Part shown: one piece after another, positions 7,759 through 56,803 of the stretch
How the letters are laid out: each line of letters begins with the position of its first letter
How positions within the stretch are numbered: position 1 is the first letter of the stretch
From: Halichondria panicea
Lineage: Eukaryota > Porifera > Demospongiae > Suberitida > Halichondriidae
Direction: 5' to 3'
Length of the DNA: 64,000 nucleotides
Assembly (NCBI RefSeq): GCF_963675165.1
Contig: NC_087386.1
Coordinates: 3,788,169-3,852,168, forward strand
Notes under the pieces: generated by a model
The model's database searches: none
What the model was told of the DNA's origin: nothing
What the model saw: the letters and a program-made list of their open reading frames with translations, nothing else
Made by a program: the position numbers and the translations under genes

Positions 7759-7864
7759 TGGCCCGCTAGAACAGAACGAGTAGATCACTTGAGAAACAAG
7801 CGCTTCATCCAGTCATATTACTATTGCAGCCAGTGCTCTTACACATGCCAAGTGTGCTTTAGCA

Positions 7865-8953
7865 ATGATAACTAAGATGGCAGAATCACCTACATCAAAC
7901 GGCATGGTCCAGCAGCCTACCAGTACCCTGGTGCAGACTCCTTCCTCCACTGCAAGCTCTTACAAGAGAGAAAACTCACCTAAATCTCCAACCCAAGATT
8001 CACTCTCTAAGAAGCGTGCTAGGAATAGGCATGTGCCTTACCAAAACAGCAAGAGTCCCAGTGGCAGTTGCTCCAGCTCAGACGAAGGTAGCGATGAAAA
8101 CGATACAGGAGACTTTCCTATAGTTGTGGAATCCAGAAGCAAGAGGCTGCAAGCGAACAGCCGAGAGAGAAAGAGGATGCATACCGTGAACTCTGCATTT
8201 GATGAACTAAGAGAACTTGTGCCAACCTATCCATCAAATAGGAAGCTCTCCAAGATTGACACACTCAGATTAGCATGTACCTACATTCAAGACTTGGTTT
8301 CTGTCCTCCACCAAACAAGAGCCATGCAGAGTATGCAAGGGGATGAATTGGCTCAATTTCCTATCTATGGAGATGGCTATGGACTGCCTGGACCTTACTC
8401 GCCATGTTTTAATGTGAAGACGGAAGCTTCTATCTCAGAATTCCCTGCATTTACCAATTACAGGATGCCTTCAACCTGCATGACACCTGTAAGTGGTTTG
8501 CGTATGGTGTTTTAATCATTAATTTTAGCAGATACACTAGAATTATAGCCCATGTACACCGAACTCCGTTCACCATGTTTTTTCATCCTACAGACATGTG
8601 ACTCGGATTACAGCAATTCTGAAACAGAGACACACAGCCCACCTTACCTGCCGCCAACATCGCATAGTGGCCTACCAGCTGGTATTGCAGTGAGACCTCC
8701 ACCACTTACAAGAACCAGTAGTGATTCAGCTGCACAAATTCATAGGCCAATGGCACATGCAACCGTGAGTGTCACTGGTGGGCCTTCACATTCACAATCA
8801 CAGCGACAGATGACCATCCCGTCTCCATTAGCAACCCATGCCGTGCAGCACACTGCGCAGCCACTTCTGTCAAATGAACTCGGTATTCATCACTCACCTC
8901 CCGTGTGGCAACGGTGTGGGAGTATGCCCACCTACCCAGTGTACGGGCAATAG
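7865..8953 (+). CDS. Group A basic helix-loop-helix transcription factor
   Basis: Two exons, 7865-8488 and 8594-8953, are joined in phase 0 across a 105-bp GT-AG intron and give 327 residues. The bHLH domain spans about residues 93-148. The basic region is [13 protein letters not shown], with the E-box-contacting Glu at about 101. Helix 1 contains [13 protein letters not shown] and helix 2 contains [17 protein letters not shown]. Low-complexity Ser/Thr/Pro sequence flanks the domain on both sides; the C-terminal half is rich in Ser, Pro and His. The protein should dimerise with an E-protein and regulate development. Helix 2 resembles the Twist/HAND/paraxis/TCF21 side of group A, while the basic region and loop are less specific, so I give no orthologue name. 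Another ATG at 7877 is possible. The gene faces the exchanger tail-to-tail. Confidence 0.93.
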
Positions 8954-34922: not shown

Positions 34923-35106
34923 CATGCAAAATGTGTTCCAGCCGAGTACTTCAATGGCAGATTCGTCTTCATCCATGTCCATATCATCTATTATATCCAT
35001 CATTAATTTTTAATACATCTTTGATACACGTGCTTTAAATAGAGCTGCTGCATCAGGTCAAAGTATATGTTTCTCAATGGGACTCAGGTCTATACTGTAC
35101 TGTACT

Positions 35107-35758
35107 GCATGTGCAGAGATTAATGGTTGCATGTGCAGACATGATCACTGCATGTGCAGAGATTAATGGTTGCATGTGCAGACATGATCACTGCACACGC
35201 AGAGACTAATGGTTGCATGTACAGACATGATCACTGCATGTGTAGAGACTAATGGTTGCATGTGCAGACATGATCACTGCATGTGTAGAGACTAATGGTT
35301 GCATGTGCAGACATGATCACTGCATGTGCAGAGATTAATGGTTGCATGTGCAGACATGATCACTGCACACGCAGAGACTAATGGTTGCATGTGCAGACAT
35401 GATCACTGCATGTGCAGAGACTAATGGTTGCATGTGCAGACATGATCACTGCATGTGCAGAGACTAATGGTTGCATGTGCAGACATGATCACTGCATGTG
35501 CAGAGATTAATGGTTGCATGTGCAGACATGATCACTGCATGTGCAGAGATTAATGGTTGCATGTGCAGACATGATCACTGCACACGCAGAGACTAATGGT
35601 TGCATGTGCAGACATGATCACTGCATGTGCAGAGACTAATGGTTGCATGTGCAGACATGATCACTGCATGTGCAGAGACTAATGGTTGCATGTGCAGACA
35701 TGATCACTGCATGTGCAGAGACTAATGGTTGCATGTGCAGACATGATCACTGCATAAG
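35107..35758. repeat. 43-bp minisatellite array, right arm
   Basis: About 15 copies of a unit containing GCATGTGCAGACATGATCAC and AGAGATTAATGGTT. Variants swap GCATGTGCAGAG with GCACACGCAGAG and GATTAATGG with GACTAATGG. After an interruption at about 35752-35920, the array continues to about 36258. Confidence 0.85.
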
Positions 35759-36371
35759 GCGATCATTGCACGTGCATGCTATGTCGGTATATTCACACCA
35801 GGACACTCCTATGTATATGCAGACATTGTTATTGAAACACACGGCGCGCCATACTAACAGCTTAAATCACATGCCCTCTGTCATTGTGAAATCTTTGAAA
35901 GAAACCTTTGACAAGGAGACATGATCACTGCATGTGCACAGACTAATGGTTGCATGTGCAGACATGATCACTGCATGTACAGACATGATCACTGCACACG
36001 CAGAGACTAATGGTTGCATGTGCAGACATGATCACTGCATGTGCAGAGATTAATGGTTGCATGTGCAGACATGATCACTGCATGTGCACAGACTAATGGC
36101 TGCATGTGCAGACATGATCACTGCATGTGCAGAGATTAATGGTTGCATGTGCAGACATGATCACTGCATGTGCAGAGATTAATGGTTGCATGTGCAGACA
36201 TGATTACTGCACACGCAGAGATTAATGGTTGCATGTGCAGACATGATCACTGCATAAGGCGATCATTGCACATGCATGCTATCTAGGTATATTCACACCA
36301 GGGCACGCCTATGTACATGCAGACATTGTTATTGAAACACACGGCGCGCCATACGCGCCATAAGGCCGGCA

Positions 36372-36612
36372 TACTGTACATCAGATGTATGCGGAGAGTA
36401 ATGTGACTTCCTGTATCTGTCACAACCTTGGAATTTGCACACTGACCAATCCAAGTGTGGTGATGTCATCTATCAAGAAAGTAGATTACATCACCCACAC
36501 TTGGATGGGTTGATAGATTACATCACCCACGCTTGGATTGGTCAGTGTGCAAATTCCAAGCTTGTGACAGATACAGGAAGTCACGTTACTCTCCGCATAC
36601 ATCTGATGTGTA
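36372..36612. mobile_element. Near-perfect palindromic foldback element
   Basis: Arms of about 110 nt, starting ACATCAGATGTATGCGGAGA and ending TCTCCGCATACATCTGATGT, surround a loop that repeats TAGATTACATCACCCAC. It interrupts the right end of the 34171-36656 inverted repeat, so it is a later insertion. No ORF. Confidence 0.8.
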
Positions 36613-36849: not shown

Positions 36850-39584
36850 ATGGCACAACGCACTGTAAGCTCTGAAAGTATTCAAATCTGGTTGCAGCTG
36901 GTTGATAATCATCTTACGCCAGAGAGTGTTGCTTTTCTTAAGTTAGGTCTCTACCCTCGCATAAAATTTGTGTCCTATGAGCAGATATTGAAACCATCAC
37001 AGCTTTACAATTATCTTCTTGCCAGTCATGGCAGTAGACCAGGAGACGAGAAGCAAATACTGCAAGTGTTCGCCAATGCCCTAAAACAGCTGGGTGAAGA
37101 GTTAAGGGGAGTTCATCTTGTTGACTGCATGCCTGCCTATGGACTTGACATTCCACTTCCGCTGAAGGATCATGAGCTTACAAAGGACGACAAGTTTTAC
37201 TCGTGCCTTGTGAGAGTTGGAATCAAGTCCAGAGGTTTGGAATTGGAGCTAAGACTTCAGAAGCACTTCTGCCGCCCTTCGTATTTGAATATGAATTACC
37301 AAAATCTCAAACATTTGCCAGACCTTTTTGTAAGGCTTATTCAGAATAAGCTTATTGGGTGCGATTACACTGAAGAGCTACTGAAAGCATTCACAAAGTA
37401 TGGTGCACGTCAGTGCATCAAATGCCTCGACCAGTACTACCACAGCGTTGATTTGCCTAGAGTACCTACTTATCAATCAGGTACCGTATTATTTACTTGA
37501 TTAAACGCCCTCCTTGAATAAACGCCCATCTCATTTAAACGCCCAGGGTAAAAGCTCTGTCTTTGTCAATAACGCCCATCTTAAATAATCGCCCATATAT
37601 GGGGCGTGGCACTGTGGGTGGAGCTGAAATAGCACATGGAACCTGTTGCAAGCATGGCAGTTGCAGCATAGAATAATAATGATGCATCGATGGCAGAGAG
37701 AGAGATACCGACACAGAGGGCACTCCTATGACTTAAATTTAAGCTGAGAAATAGATTTAAGCTGAGACAGCAGCCCAAGAAGAGCACAATAACTGCTGCT
37801 GTGCAAGAGTTTTGCATGGAGTAGACATAACAATAAACGCCCTCCTCGTTTAAACGCCCCCTCTAAAGACTTCGATCTGAAATAAATGCCCGGGCGTTTA
37901 ATCAACGTATATTATATTTTCTAGGCAGTTTTTTTGACATTGTAAATCACGTTCTGATACTGTTGATAATGGAGCCCTACTCTCCAGATACATGTTCATC
38001 AAGTCGTGATCAGAAAACGTCAGGTCTCAATTGTGGGTTATCTATTCATTACTCATATTTTCTAATTAATTTACTCATAGCGTCTTCTGAAGTTCTTTCC
38101 GAATGTGAAAGGAAAAAGCTGTTGCAACGAAAACGCAAATCACGACGCAGATTACAGGAGTTAAGTGAATTTGTGGATCAACCTAAAGGTAAAGTACTAC
38201 AGATTGGTAATGAATGTGGTATATATTGATGCCATATTGTTGTTGTTATCCAGGTCACTCGATAAACAATGAAGAAGTATCAAGGAGTGCCCCACAAAAT
38301 GGCTCAATCTTTAATGAGATAATTACTGGTATAAGATTCAATATGTGTAGGTACTTTTCATGTGCGCATGAATTGTGCTTTTCCTCTTCAGAAGCTTCAG
38401 AAGCCACGGTGACATCAAATGCTCAGAAGCAGCAACAGGCACCAAACGACGAATCAAACTCAAGCACTGATCATGAATCCTCAGATGATGAAGGTATGCT
38501 TTTCTTTACAGCGCTCAAAAAAGTCATTATCACCCCACAGAAATTGAACATTTTCTTCCTAAACCCGCAAGAAGTAAGTATCACTATTAGCCTTTGTCTA
38601 GGCCTTCCAGACAGAGCTAACCCTGTCATCACTTTTTCACTACAGGTATAGGATTCCCTACTCAAGGTCCAAGGAAGGGTATGTGGCTCTTTATTAGAAT
38701 AAAAATACAACGTGCATATTGCAGCTTTTTGTACCAAGTTCTGTTGTGTTGGAGCGATAGTAGGCCTGCTGATGTTTCTGGTAGTGGTTGGTGTTGTGTC
38801 TGGCACTGCTTGGATACATCTAATAAAGACAAAGCCAATGTCCACACAAGGAAAGGAAGGAAACATCATTGTTCTTGGGCGTATCAACCACTTTTTCGTC
38901 AGAATTGTTGATGTCTATGGATATCGGATAATTGAGCCTGTGGGCGTTTATCGGTATGATGGGGACTGTGCTAATTTACCAGCTAATCCAAGCCCTCAGC
39001 ATATAAAACATTTAAAAAATATAACTAATATGTATCTTCTTGAAGGTACAGAGTTCATTTATGATTTGCAGCTGTTGGATACCAACAATAATGCACATGT
39101 TGATGTCTACTTGACTATTGGCCTCGAAGTATATGGTTTCAATCCCTTGGATGAAGAGAATGTAGTTTGTCATAACAAAGCCTTTTCTGATGGGAAAACC
39201 CATCATTGCGTGCATAGAGTGACCGAAAGTACATACTACAATCTAAACATTCTTTTGTCTTTCCCAATCGCAAATACCGAGTATCACATGAATGTAAGCT
39301 TTGACAACAAGTCTATTATCACCACACACCTTGAGCATATATGCACTATTGCGAACAAAGAGCATTGTGTTATCCCTTTCTCATTTTCTGGCTCATTAGC
39401 ATGCTTGGTGGGAAACATTTCGAATACAACTGCGGACGATGTATTTTATGTTGATGTCAACACTATTGCATTTCAGATTTCCCCTGTGTTGGGAATTACT
39501 GTCACAATAGTGCTACTTTTTCTTTTAGTTTTTTTACTCTTTTGTTGTTGCTGTCTTTATACCAGGCATAATTTCTGCTTGTGA
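36850..39584 (+). CDS. Membrane protein with two death-effector-like N-terminal domains
   Basis: Seven exons in phase give 635 residues: 36850-37480, 37925-38023, 38081-38188, 38254-38328, 38392-38493, 38646-38678 and 38725-39584. Residues about 8-93 form a helical domain with the DED-like pattern LVDNHLTPESVAFLKLG then LYNYLLASH. Residues about 115-197 form a second one with LPDLFVRLIQNKLIG and LLKAFTKYGARQCIKCLD. A basic patch follows (RKRKSRRRL, about 265), then a Ser/Gln/Asp-rich linker. A membrane span lies at about 356-383. The next roughly 215 residues carry five N-glycosylation sequons (such as KNIT, MNVS, GNIS) and several Cys. A second span lies near 600-625, ending in CCCC. I infer cytosolic death-fold domains coupled to an ectodomain, as in a receptor. 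No known family is recognised. CARD is an alternative to DED. Confidence 0.75.
37483..37915. mobile_element. MITE filling intron 1 of the DED-like gene
   Basis: The left end TTGATTAAACGCCC (about 37498) pairs with GGGCGTTTAATCAA (about 37891-37904). Internal AAACGCCC and AACGCCCATC motifs repeat in both orientations. The intron is 444 bp (37481-37924) and the element occupies nearly all of it. No ORF. Confidence 0.75.
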
Positions 39585-49283: not shown

Positions 49284-49932
49284 TCATGATATTTGCTTGG
49301 TAATGAGTCTCCAAACTGTCGGACCTACACACAGCAGCAACAACATATGAAATAATAATGGTAACGGATACTGACAGATGGACAACATCACAAAGAGCAT
49401 AATTATATTTGTCAGGGCCTGGGGACGAGTGTAGCATTGTGCATGATACATAATTTAATTAGCCTCGAGACCAGCCGTTCGTTATCTGAAAGAACGCCTG
49501 GTGAAGTTCCAATGTAGCACTCGTCCAGCTGAGTCAGCGTTTTATAGCATCATAATGATATTCATGGGTAATACACCTTGGGCGGACAATTACTGGTCCA
49601 AGAAATTCCTGGACCACTGGACGAGTGCTACATTGGAACTTGACCAGGCGTTCTTTCAGATAACGAACGGCTGGTCTCGAGGCTATAATTTAATATGCTA
49701 TTAATAGTGTACACAATAAACACCACATAAGTGGATACCTACATCCCAAAATTAGAATACTAATGAGAAGTATTGAGGACTGACCAACTCTCAACAAGAG
49801 TACTATCGTCCCAAAAGCAGTGACACTCGATATGACATTCCATCTTGCAGCCAATGCCTCTTCTTCCTCCATCTTCTTTACCTGTTCACTGGAGAGGCCC
49901 AGACCTTCTGGATTCATTGACATTCGTTGCAT
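49284..49932 (-). CDS. TOMM5: TOMM5-like small mitochondrial outer-membrane translocase subunit
   Basis: Two exons (49785-49932 and 49284-49324) joined in phase 1 give 62 residues. The order of features fits TOM5: an acidic/charged cytosolic N-terminus (SSEQVKKMEEEEALAARW), the motif NVISSVTAFGTIVLLLRV (compare the VISS…LLRVTP pattern of animal TOMM5), and a short basic C-terminus WRLITKQIS. It is slightly longer than the vertebrate form (about 51). TOM5 is a tail-anchored accessory subunit of the TOM protein-import complex. Three in-frame ATGs open the ORF, at 49932, 49923 and 49917, so the start could be shorter. The 460-bp intron holds a palindromic MITE. It is head-to-head with KDM8 and upstream of PPP1R21 on the same strand. 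The identity rests on short motifs. Confidence 0.75.
49455..49688. mobile_element. Palindromic MITE (family B) in the TOMM5 intron
   Basis: The left arm begins GCCTCGAGACCAGCCGTTCG and the right arm ends CGAACGGCTGGTCTCGAGGC. Arms of about 80 nt include AACGCCTGGT and CAATGTAGCACTCGTCCAG. Related to 52708-53025. Confidence 0.8.
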
Positions 49933-50137
49933 GGTTGGCTGTTTGCTGTATATATTATATATGTGTACAAGTTTAATACTTCTTCACCAAACACCACATG
50001 CACACGTGTGTAGATCTTGCCAGGCTTTATTCTATAGCGGCAAATTAAAAAAGGGAGTGGTTTCCAGTCTGCAAAATTGCATAATTTATTGTTGTAAGTG
50101 CAAGACTGAAGTGGTGAGATCCAATAAAACAGTAAAC
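49933..50137. promoter_or_regulatory. Divergent promoter between TOMM5 and KDM8
   Basis: 205 bp separates the two start codons. A TATATATTATATAT stretch at about 49950-49963 could serve as a TATA-like element. The common promoter is inferred from spacing. Confidence 0.6.
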
Positions 50138-53100
50138 ATGGATGAGCAGGACCCTGGCTTACTGACGGAATGGGTAGACAGTGTCAAAGAGAATTTATCT
50201 GTGATGAAGAAACATCTCCAGCAGTTTCATGCAAATGAACACGCTTTGATGACATCACTTTCTCATGCATTACAGAGCTCATGGAATGCTCTCAGCAAAC
50301 TCACATACAATTACAAAGCGATGAATGACTCTAGTGACTTAGAATTGGGTGACGAGTGGGCCCAAGTTGCATTGGATTTATCGTGGGAGCAGTTGAACAC
50401 GGGACACTGGAAAGACGTTGGTCGTGTGTGGAGGGAAGCGTATACTACCGCTGCTCTGATGAAGGCACTCGGTTTGGTGATGAAAGGCCAGACCCAAGAG
50501 GCGTTGGAGGTGACTGACAAAGGGATATTACTTGGAGCACCTATCCTTGATGGTGCATTGCATAGTCTTGCAAGTGTTTTAGTGAAAACAGTCAACTTGG
50601 CAAACCATACTACGATTGTTACAGCTGATCATGATTTAACTTCTGTTTCCCTTTACCCTGATGCGGATCCTCCTGTAGAAAAGAAACCAAAGGTTGTTTT
50701 TAGAAGCTATATGCCAATTCAACCATTATCTATAATAGCGGCAAAAACTGTCGATAATAACGGCGAAGACTCGTTCCCTGACAAGTGTAAAGCATCAGAC
50801 GTTCCTCTGATTGACCCATCGAGGAGAATCTCTGTGAGGCACTGTCCTTCACTGGACGAGTTCATGGAGCAGTATATGAAGAGTAGGGTTCCCGTGGTGA
50901 TCTCTGGAGCCATGGACCACTGGCCTGCTTATGCAGTCAAAAAATGGAGGTATAATAATTATTATATGCGCATATAATATGCACACAGAATTATAGTTTG
51001 TTCTATACCGGTAGTTTGCTAGGCGATTAACTAGTAATAATAACACTCTTCAGGCCTTCATACAGAAAAAATTGACAGGGGGGGGGGGGAGGCGATTATC
51101 CGTATGCTAACGTACCTACAGACAGTAACTTAGAAGAAATTGTGGACGTATGGAACAGAAGAATAGCAGTTTAATCGAAGTAAAGAATTGTAATAATTAC
51201 GAATATTAAGGTAGAGCTTTTTGTTTGGTAGGTGTCACAGGCTGTAACACGGTGTGTTAGGCCTATATTTTCAATACAATTGCCAGGGGTGCGAGCGCCC
51301 CCCTGTGCCCCCCCTCTCTATGAAGCCCTGCTGAGTCTTTCAGTCGGGCTGTGGAAGTAGTAATAAATTGGCTGCTTCACTCGTTAAACACAGTTTGGGT
51401 TACTTGAAGAAAGTAGCTGGCCCTCGTACAGTACCTATTGAGTTGGGGTCAAAGTACACAGATGAAGAGTGGTCACAGGAGCTAATGACTCTCTCAGAAT
51501 TCATTGACAGGTTTGTAACTCAGGTGAGTAGCAGCTGTGGATTTGTTAGCTCAGGGTACAATGATTATGTTCCCATACAGCATCCTATTAATGGACCTAA
51601 AGGATACCTAGCACAACATCAGCTGTTTGATCAGGTACATAACAACAATTAATTGACACTGTGCTTGGCACTCCATCAATATAAGAACCCTTGTCGATAT
51701 AATTATTGTGCACATAATTATAGCTTCAATGCTAGCTACATTGTACATGACTGCACATGTACTCATGTTTAGAGCAGTGTATTGTGTCAAATACTTATTG
51801 TCCACCACAATGTAGTGGACAATAAGTTATATACCCACTGAAATGAACAATGCTTGCTACCTTACCTTGGATACAATTAGCTAACAGTCTCAAAAACTCT
51901 TGAAAACGAACGACAAGCTTGTGCGTATAGCTTGTAGCCAGTGCTAAGCTTTTAGCTCTACGCACTAACTTAGTAAGCCCCACTCTTTCTCTAGCCTTCC
52001 TGGTGTTTAGTGAGCCCCACCCATGATCTGTCCTGCCCTTGCCAACTAGTGTCTAGCTTCTCTTTGGCTGTGTAGATCTAGTATACAATCAGTGCGCCCT
52101 CAAGGCAAAGGAGTTTAAATGAGAAATGCGGAGTTTACATGTATGGTATTTAAACCCCACCCAGTTGTATGATACAGACCCCAAGGGGTATATTTATATT
52201 TTAGTTAAATTACCATGCAATGAATTTTCAGATTCCAGAACTCAAGGATGATATCTCCATTCCTGACTACTGTTGCTTGAGATACACTGATTGTGTTGAA
52301 TCTGGAAAATCACCTGCCAGCAAAGATACCGCAATATCATGTGATTCACTGTGCACAACCCCCACACTGTCTAACAATGCACCAACTAATACTGAAGAGA
52401 TAGACATCAAAGTGAATGCCTGGTTTGGACCTAAGGGGACTATTTCTCCACTTCATTTTGACCCTGAACACAACCTCTTATCTCAGGTAATCCACAAAAC
52501 AGTTGAGAATTGATATCCTCGTTGTAGTGTATATGGTATCTCGATCTCGGCCTAGTTTCCTTTTTGAGCAAATCAATCTCCTTCGATGATGCTATGCATG
52601 ATTTGTAGTAGATAAATTATGTCTGCATGCATGATCTCATATAGCTTTATTAGAACGTCGGTTGCTTGGGTGACCCTATTATGATAAGTATGTCATGAGG
52701 TTAAAACTTAGCCTCGAGACCAAGCCGTTCGTTGTCTGAAAGAACGCCTGGTCAAGTCCCAATGTAGAACTCGTCTAATTGGTCCAGGAATTTTTGGATC
52801 AATAATTGCCCGCAACAACCATACTTATCCGTGAATATCATTATGATGCTTACAGCAACGTGCAGCTGCAGTGCAACAACCAAAGAGCTAGTATTGTTGT
52901 GTTTGCGGTACCGCAATCATGTTCACAACTACTCAAGCCTAACCACTCGCTGACTCAGCTAGACGAGTTCTACATGGAATTTGACCCGGCGTTCTTTCAG
53001 ACAACAAACGGCCTGGTCTTGAGGCAGTTGTATAAAACTATGTAGACTTTCAAATGGCTATTAAATCATTGAAATCTTATTCGAATGTATATGTAGGTGG

Positions 53101-54998: not shown

Positions 54999-56803
54999 AT
55001 GTACGTGAATAGCTTGTGTGTGCTATTAGTGTTCATAGCAGCTGTTGAGCGTCTCGTAAACTGTACGGATCGTACTCAAGCGCTTACTGAATGTACAAAC
55101 AACAGTGACTGTTTTCCTGCGATGAAATGTGACAATGGTACATGTGTGTGCGAAGCAAAACAGATTATCAATATGCAGTTCTCTGGATTACTCAAGTGTG
55201 ACAAGCAAGGTGTTTCGGTTTCTGACTGCAATTGCTTCACATTTGATAACAATACAAAGCTGTACACACAGTAGGAGCTTGTATGGAGAATTGCATGAAT
55301 GGTGACAGTGATTTCTACAATAATTTCTATCATCCGACCTTTCCTCCGAGCAGTACTAATGTTACTGAGATAATGTGTGGGAAGTACAACAGGGGTGGAC
55401 GTCTGTGTGGCAAATGTCTACCTAGCTTCAGTCCTCAGGCCTATACGTACAGCATAAAGTGTGTTCATTGCCCTGAAGGAAATACAAATCTATGGAAATA
55501 CTTTGCAGCTTCGTTGCTACCTCTGACCTGCTTTTATTTTCTTATTGTGTTCTTCAAGATTAACACTACATCTTCACATCTACATGGCTACATAATATTC
55601 GCTCAAACTTTATGTCATCCAGCATTTGGTCGTCTTGTGTATATAGCACAGAAAGCGAATTCAAATTTCACTATTCCTACAAATATTTTATTCATTCTGT
55701 ATGGAATTTGGGATCTCAGTTTTTTTCAAATGTTCAACTCTGAGAGTATATGCTTGAATATGTCACCACTATCAGTACGAGCGCTGGATTACTCCATTGC
55801 TGTATTTCCACTTGTTTTAACGGTGATCTCATACGTACTCATTGAGCTACACGATAAGAACTACAGGATAATAGTGTTGGTTTGGAAACCATTCCGCAGT
55901 ATGTTCATTCTGTTTCGTAGAAATTGGGATATTCGAACATCGATCATAGACGCTTATGCTACCTTCTATCAGCTCTCATTTTTCAAGATCCTGTGTATTA
56001 CACAAGATTTTCTCACTCCCATATATGCCCACACTTCAGAAAAAAAGAAGAAACTAGTTTTGTTCTATGATGCTACTGTTGACTATTTTGGAGAAGAGCA
56101 TTTGCCGTATGCTATACCTGCCATTATCATTGCCTTTTTCACTATTATTCTTCCTGTCGCCCTACTTCTCTGCTATCAATGTAACTGCTTTCAAACTTTG
56201 TTGAGTCGATGTCATCTTTCTTCACATATACTTCAAACTTTGATGAATTCCTTTCAAAGCTCATACAAAGATGGTACTGAGCCTGCTACAAATGACTGTC
56301 GGTGGTTTGCAGCATTTGATCTTTTTGTACGAATTGTGTTTTGCTTTGTGTATTCCATCACATTAGGAAGTATCTTTTTTTCCCTTGCGGCCGTGTTAAT
56401 GTTCTTTGTGATATTACTTGTAGTCAACATTCAACCATACAATTCACGAGTTAAACACTACTTCAAAATTGACTTATCCTTCTACTGCTTTATCGGTCTG
56501 TTTTTTGTTACTCTTGCGTCAGCCAACACAGCATCCTGGAAAGCACACAATTTTGTGCCTATGCTCTATTATTGTTCTGTGGTTATTGTGATGGTCCCTT
56601 TGATCTACATGTTGTGTATTTCAATTCACTGGTTGTTTTCAAGACGAAAATTTGGAAAGACCCTTATCAGAAGATTGCAAGCTTGGAGAAGTGGCTATGA
56701 TTCGTTGGAGGACTCTTTACCTCACAGGCTGCTGCACCCGGATCATTACGTCCACCAAGGATTACCCAATGCTGCGAGTAGCAATAATTCATTGACAAGC
56801 TAG
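54999..56803 (+). CDS. Cysteine-rich multi-pass membrane protein, with an internal frame break
   Basis: An intronless gene in two frames. The first (54999-55274, 91 codons) starts with a signal peptide (MYVNSLCVLLVFIAAVERLV) and a Cys-rich ectodomain (CDNGTCVC, DCNC). It stops at TAG within TACACACAGTAG. The second continues, offset by two bases, from VGACMENC (about 55271) to 56803. It has CGKYNRGGRLCGKCLPSFSP and then about eight or nine hydrophobic segments: about 55492-55550, 55600-55650, 55675-55730, 55790-55850, 56100-56170, 56330-56430, 56470-56525 and 56560-56640. Content and style are continuous across the break. An extra AC unit (or a missing base) in ACACACA would explain it: a sequencing error, a null allele or a young pseudogene. 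The membrane topology suggests a receptor or transporter, but I know no function. It resembles an expanded family I associate with sponges (recall only). Confidence 0.7.

Follow-up and report, generated by a model that had tools for sequence, protein, structure and literature searches.

Death receptors of the TNF-receptor type, such as Fas, have in the accounts available an outer domain, a membrane span and a C-terminal DD, with FADD as the bridge to the caspases. BFAR/BAR is a membrane protein with a DED-like domain, which has the order RING-SAM-DED, C-terminal spans and no large ectodomain. Caspase-8 and cFLIP have a tandem DED, i.e. two consecutive DEDs. A similar layout is found in the approximately 50 proteins of the oyster Crassostrea virginica for which the available text of PMC8195603 gives the order Cys-rich ectodomain, one membrane span, DED and TRADD-N. 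The same text lists 357 TRADD-N proteins for the sponge Amphimedon, most architectures having N-terminal death-like domains. Surveys of other sponges counted 7 DED proteins in Dysidea avara (PMC12909245) and many in two haplosclerid sponges (PMC4704026), and the tandem-DED two-span layout is not described in the available text of these two surveys. A literature search, which covered titles and abstract openings and had most subscription journals outside its coverage, returned no tandem-DED two-span protein and no DED-APD1-4 protein.

In the sponge Halichondria panicea we find a gene which is predicted to join an N-terminal tandem DED to two membrane spans with an ectodomain between them. With caspase-8 and cFLIP it shares the two consecutive DEDs, while it has spans and an ectodomain and lacks both the caspase domain and the RxDL motif. 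It has a DED-like domain in a membrane protein in common with BFAR/BAR, but not the RING-SAM-DED order, the C-terminal position of the spans or the absence of a large ectodomain. It would work like Fas, with an outer domain, a span and a death fold that recruits caspases, but the tandem DEDs would be on the receptor itself instead of a C-terminal DD with a FADD bridge, as far as the latter is described in the accounts available.

As in the oyster proteins, DEDs are directly combined with a membrane span and an outer domain. Compared to what the available text of PMC8195603 reports, the domain order, the tandem DED, the second span and the type of ectodomain are different, and TRADD-N gave no Pfam match up to E 10 in a scan of exons 1 and 7. 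The preliminary description of the locus had spoken of an unusual receptor design. This holds in so far as the layout differs from the oyster proteins, but "unheard of" would be too strong, and because DED membrane proteins have been published in oyster we consider the sponge family a variant and not the first of its sort.

Gene structure

The window, which is the whole 64-kb stretch of DNA analysed, corresponds to C10:3788169-3852168 in an assembly of 131,455,214 bases and 39 contigs. The same assembly was used for all genome searches, and the Pfam models run against it were DED, caspase, APD1-4_N and APD1-4_M. A seven-exon gene is predicted at window positions 36850..39584 on the forward strand; it codes for 614 residues and its TGA stop ends at position 39584 (Table 1). 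All six introns of this model are GT-AG introns in phase 1. The exon model had already been given in the preliminary description, and its coordinates proved to be exact, with matching GT/AG sites, phase-1 introns and an open frame throughout. The basic patch and the Ser/Asp-rich linker named there are present as well, the former as ERKKLLQRKRKSRRR within exon 3 and the latter in exon 5.

Table 1. Features of the seven-exon gene (window positions) and related loci in the same genome (contig positions).
Feature	Position	Strand	Basis
Exon 1: start codon and tandem DED, residues 1-211	36850..37480	+	splice model, homology, DED HMM
DED1, residues 15-97	36892..37140	+	HMM of own-genome canonical DEDs, domain score 7.0
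DED2, residues 116-199, RxDL position = GARQC	37195..37446	+	domain score 7.7; aligns to DED2 of caspase-like locus L003
Exon 2: small symmetric phase-1 linker exon	37988..38023	+	splice signals and phase only
Exon 3: basic patch	38081..38188	+	splice signals and phase only
Exon 4: linker	38254..38328	+	splice signals and phase only
Exon 5: Ser/Asp-rich linker	38392..38493	+	splice signals and phase only
Exon 6: short linker	38646..38678	+	splice signals and phase only
Exon 7: span 1, ectodomain, span 2, short Cys-rich tail, stop	38725..39584	+	splice model, homologous exons
Membrane span 1, residues 335-353	38742..38798	+	hydropathy 2.93; helix in single-sequence model
Ectodomain, probably APD1-4 N/M-like, 5 N-glycosylation sequons	38829..39455	+	sequon counts, hhalign, held-out profile
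Membrane span 2, residues 588-606	39501..39557	+	hydropathy 3.23; helix in single-sequence model
C17 member	C17:5149676-5147508		both halves homologous
C11 member	C11:2407515-2405013		both halves homologous
C12:4518 member	C12:4518972-4515877		both halves present
C12:4492 member	C12:4492204-4496585		both halves present
C12:4481 member	C12:4481367-4484172		both halves present

Related genes in the genome

A paralogue search, as suggested in the preliminary description, revealed the two-part layout, with a tandem-DED exon followed by a span-ectodomain-span exon, at five further loci (Table 1). With exon 1 as query, the genome search returned C17:5149071-5149628 (residues 10-198, E 0.0067) and, over the second DED only, the canonical tandem-DED exon C10:860070 (E 1.1); the corresponding pairwise values are 3e-8 and 4e-5. 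The C17 DED exon is followed on its strand by a two-span frame of 355 residues which matches window exon 7 in pairwise comparison (E 6e-7, 22% over 263 residues). Exon 7 as a direct genome query finds only itself up to E 10. The C11 gene was found with the C17 halves as queries (E 1.9e-18 and 1.2e-22), and the C11 ectodomain leads to C12:4516165 (E 0.109), which is part of a 408-residue two-span frame downstream of a DED stretch. Step by step (C17, C11 and three loci on C12), six genes with both halves were thus obtained.

For BLAST comparisons within the family, the database size was set to one million letters. The ectodomains are connected between window and C17 (E 0.001), between C11 and C17 (1e-16) and within the three C12 members (2e-6 to 2e-53); from window, C17 and C11 to the C12 group, the links are weak (E 0.016-0.019). 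The DED pair of window and C17 is not listed by standard BLAST; because more sensitive seeds give E 7.7e-5 at the same database size, we attribute this to a seeding miss. DED links of the C12 group to the others are not significant by BLAST, the best being E 5.0 (C12:4286 to C17). When held-out DED profiles were used, all eight exons (including C12:4497 and C12:4286) scored above all 300 shuffles, window exon 1 reaching 31.5 vs 7.9 for its best shuffle. The same applies to six of seven exons with held-out ectodomain profiles (window exon 7: 18.3 vs 8.8), the failing one being C12:4288, which is reached by 13 of 300 shuffles.

Altogether, seven loci have an ectodomain that is homologous by sequence, and because a tandem-DED exon closely precedes six of these on the same strand, DEDs, spans and ectodomain are assigned to one gene. 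The seventh locus, C12:4247753-4248823 (L083:3754-4824), has an ectodomain which matches those of the C12 members (E 6.8e-33) and a tail containing PPSY; no DED occurs in frames of at least 80 residues within 3.75 kb upstream. It could be argued that exons 1 and 7 belong to different transcripts, either from two neighbouring genes or by a false exon model, given that the small linker exons 2 to 6 are placed by splice signals and phase alone. However, homologous exon pairs recur at six loci in the same order and on the same strand, with intron borders in the paralogues that are in phase 1 when read by eye. The pairing is thus more than chance, which makes separate transcripts very improbable. 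The seven-exon locus is predicted to be a single gene joining the tandem DED exon to the span-ectodomain-span exon, and the DED-DED-span-ectodomain-span proteins very probably form a family.

Several other loci were considered. At C12:4285757-4289197, a DED exon (Pfam E 3.8e-4) is found together with a span-loop-span exon, the loop of which scores no better than shuffles (13/300), so that this locus is only a possible member. C12:4278416-4279525 was rejected, having a weak loop match (E 0.0435) and no upstream DED in frames of at least 80 residues up to position 4282860 on its strand. So was C5:3800605, where the match (E 0.008) contains an internal stop and the locus has no long two-span frame. 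Two weak matches on C7 (E 1.27 and 3.54) and one at C10:1662089 (E 0.454) are also outside the family count. For the DED exon C12:4497201, the following 4.6 kb were read without a two-span frame being found; the next frame is presumably astacin-like, as judged from its HEFGHALGLEH motif. In the C11 paralogue (L045:2138 region), the frame of the DED exon breaks near the 3' end, in the helix-6 region, which may reflect a pseudogene or an assembly error. No relative was found for exon 7 among bacterial, archaeal and viral contigs or for exon 1 among viral contigs, a comparison that is silent on other animals.

N-terminal domains

Exon 1 alone matches no family in a Pfam search up to E 10 and no DED in PDB. 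An independent model was built from seven canonical DEDs, which belong to three other genes of the same genome. This model scores 16.7 on exon 1, and none of 500 shuffles reaches this value (best 9.2). Two domains are detected, each of them weak singly, and it is their sum that carries the result.

A family DED profile was made from seven exons, those of the six two-part genes and C12:4497. Up to E 10, all of its 31 matches in PDB are DED chains, from caspase-8, FADD, cFLIP, viral FLIP and PEA-15. The top match is the tandem DED of caspase-8 (E 1.8e-6), along which the profile aligns with its positions 10-190 (of 202). With a profile of only three members (window, C17 and C11), FADD is found at E 0.75, behind an unrelated chain at 0.1. 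For the DED exons of all five relatives, DED is the best Pfam match, with E-values of 4.9e-5 (C17), 8.9e-6 (C11), 1.5e-8 (C12:4518), 1.6e-8 (C12:4492) and 0.017 (C12:4481). All five are below the curated Pfam cut-off of 35.9 bits in the exon scan, where C12:4518 has 35.2 bits; in the genome search, the DED stretch of C12:4518 is over the cut-off with 37 bits.

The divergence of exon 1, which is too large for a direct Pfam call, would allow for another death fold (CARD, DD or PYD), but this is scarcely credible when every PDB match of the family profile is a DED protein and all five relatives match the Pfam DED best. The assignment of the two N-terminal domains as DEDs is supported by this homology. 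It narrows down the DED/CARD-like domains of the preliminary description, which had placed them at residues 8-93 and 115-197, close to the boundaries in Table 1. A single-sequence AlphaFold model of exon 1 (mean pLDDT 34.1) is too poor to show a six-helix fold.

The RxDL motif is absent from both DEDs of the window gene, and classical DED contacts may thus be altered. At the DED2 site, GAYKC is found in C17, while C12:4518 keeps the similar GRSEL and the C11 site falls at the frame break. GRxDL occurs in four of the seven canonical DEDs of the genome; the other three, from caspase-type and multi-DED genes, are without it. As RxDL is missing, the protein might inhibit instead of activate: a membrane-tethered inhibitor or decoy, lacking the charged RxDL surface, would cap or sequester DED caspases in a FLIP-like manner. 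The sites in the window gene and in C17 would agree with such a role, which is nevertheless unlikely, as GRSEL is kept in C12:4518, canonical DEDs also occur without GRxDL, and motif loss alone is no proof of inhibition.

Membrane spans and ectodomain

A membrane span, a glycosylated ectodomain and a second C-terminal span had been described for this protein, and hydropathy (Table 1) and the distribution of sequons bear this out. Five of the seven sequons (427, 518, 523, 559, 562) are between the spans, two are in the linker and none is in exon 1. The six family ectodomains together have 27 sequons vs 15.7 expected by shuffling, and the six DED exons have 2 vs 4.8; one ectodomain, that of C12:4518, is against the trend (2 vs 3.9). 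The protein lacks a hydrophobic start in exon 1, which would place its N-terminus in the cytosol, and span 1, which is preceded by basic residues, should be a signal anchor. The second span is followed by only about 8 residues, and the gene has no RING. A single-sequence AlphaFold model of exon 7 is poor (mean pLDDT 45.9).

The window ectodomain itself has no convincing match in Pfam or PDB, and a family ectodomain profile retrieved three PDB chains at E 0.37-1.1, none of them convincing. Two of the six family members match PF16040 at all: C17 has, in the expected order, APD1-4_N (E 0.013) and APD1-4_M (PF16041, E 0.65), and for C12:4516 there is an APD1-4_N match (E 0.33). These are the best values in the family, and all are below cut-off. 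In the genome, APD1-4_N was found in 14 stretches, of which 9 are over cut-off (one of these only when its neighbours are included), and APD1-4_M in 13, of which 12 are over cut-off; most are on C8, and C17:5148 is the weakest entry in both lists. Of six APD1-4 loci that were read, five have the domain flanked by two spans within a single frame; the spans of the sixth (L063) are in two frames. The six family ectodomains, with spans removed, were compared by hhalign to five two-span APD1-4 proteins of the genome. The alignment, of 129 columns with two matching cysteines among them, has E 7.3e-5 and an hhalign probability of 62%; for a control comparison with the DED profile, E 0.8 and a probability of 0.1% were obtained. 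With this moderate support, it is likely, though not proven, that the family ectodomain is a divergent APD1-4 N/M domain. The family would thus resemble the APD1-4 proteins remotely in its ectodomain and, as far as the genome's own APD1-4 loci are concerned, in its two spans, but differ from the plant RING E3 ligases of this type in having no RING and an N-terminal tandem DED as its cytosolic module.

Two-span APD1-4 N+M proteins, several of them closely alike, form clusters at C8:5481731-5610389 and C17:1898537-1916044 (L058-L069). Some have Gly-rich cytosolic N-termini, and no RING match occurred in the three frames scanned. The C17 copy (L067) is a two-span protein without DED, and its tail has PPxY motifs.

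Plant APD proteins are membrane proteins of endomembranes, and PPxY tails, as found in the two related two-span proteins without DED (L067 and L083), would fit trafficking or ubiquitin-ligase binding. The family might accordingly comprise adaptors of ER or endosome, with the APD1-4-like loop as a sensor of the lumen and the DEDs as reporters of stress or of the state of trafficking. APD is described as a plant RING E3 family in the accounts available; there is no direct sign of an internal membrane in the sponge proteins, and sequon enrichment fits cell surface and lumen alike, so that we regard an endomembrane adaptor as rather unlikely.

Proposed mechanism

Gene structure, DED homology, spans, family conservation and the DED-caspase loci of the genome are the parts supported by the sequence. 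From these we infer, for the seven-exon protein, surface location, a ligand, clustering, recruitment and an outcome. The protein would span the membrane twice, with both ends, and hence the N-terminal tandem DED, in the cytosol. The glycosylated and Cys-containing ectodomain of APD1-4-like type, which forms the loop between the two spans, would be outside the cell or in the lumen. Binding of a ligand or partner may cluster the ectodomains and bring the tandem DEDs together, which could then recruit tandem-DED caspases or other DED proteins present in the same cell by DED-DED contact and with no FADD-like bridge.

Candidate partners are encoded in the genome. At C10:859830-862894, a caspase frame comes after a tandem-DED frame (E 1.8e-28), and the same arrangement occurs at C10:2923384-2921362, where the Pfam E-values are 2.1e-32 (DED) and 2.3e-31 (caspase). 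Each such pair of frames probably represents one transcript.

A two-span receptor which recruits DED caspases or adaptors directly is our best reading, to which we give about an even chance; that direct recruitment makes it an activating receptor is proposed more tentatively. The term "receptor" is thus to be read as a putative function, in cell death or immunity, suggested by the layout. A more far-reaching and rather doubtful idea is that of an expanded "FADD-less" death-receptor family in an early-branching animal. Its tandem DED would nucleate caspase-8-like filaments, and its ectodomain would be a module of ancient origin that also occurs in plant APD E3 ligases and is re-used with a death-signalling module instead of RING. 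If this were true, an early animal lineage would have had a single-protein form of receptor in its extrinsic cell-death pathway, with no DD-FADD-DED relay of the vertebrate kind, and an ectodomain type shared with plants would have been wired to the death machinery. The six genes provide a defined set for testing immune or self-recognition roles.

Further DED loci were noted. One open frame at C10:2931636-2932484 (L007:1450-2766) has three DED stretches (Pfam E 8.1e-41), and the caspase search of the genome lists no adjoining caspase stretch there. The 16 kb of C8:615943-632025 contain eight Pfam DED stretches, the frames of which have Ser/Pro-rich neighbours.

Other features of the window

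Upstream of the gene, at 35104-35755 and 35951-36255, there are tandem repeat arrays with a 43-base unit in 15.2 and 7.1 copies. They are followed by an inverted repeat at 36378-36609, about 240 bases upstream of the start codon, with 83-base arms that are 96% complementary and 66 bases apart; it may represent a hairpin or a MITE-like element. In intron 1 (37500-37900), repeated TAAACGCCC-like motifs were recognized by eye near both ends, as in a small inserted element; they were unreported by the repeat search at the settings used. Rfam has no match within the 64-kb window. A frame of 517 residues at 55250-56803 is rich in hydrophobic stretches and has no Pfam match up to E 0.01. A KDM8-like gene is located at 49784-52510 (ARM_KDM8_N E 3.6e-15, with Cupin_8 matches), and an exon of a bHLH transcription factor at 7793-8515 (HLH E 2.7e-22).
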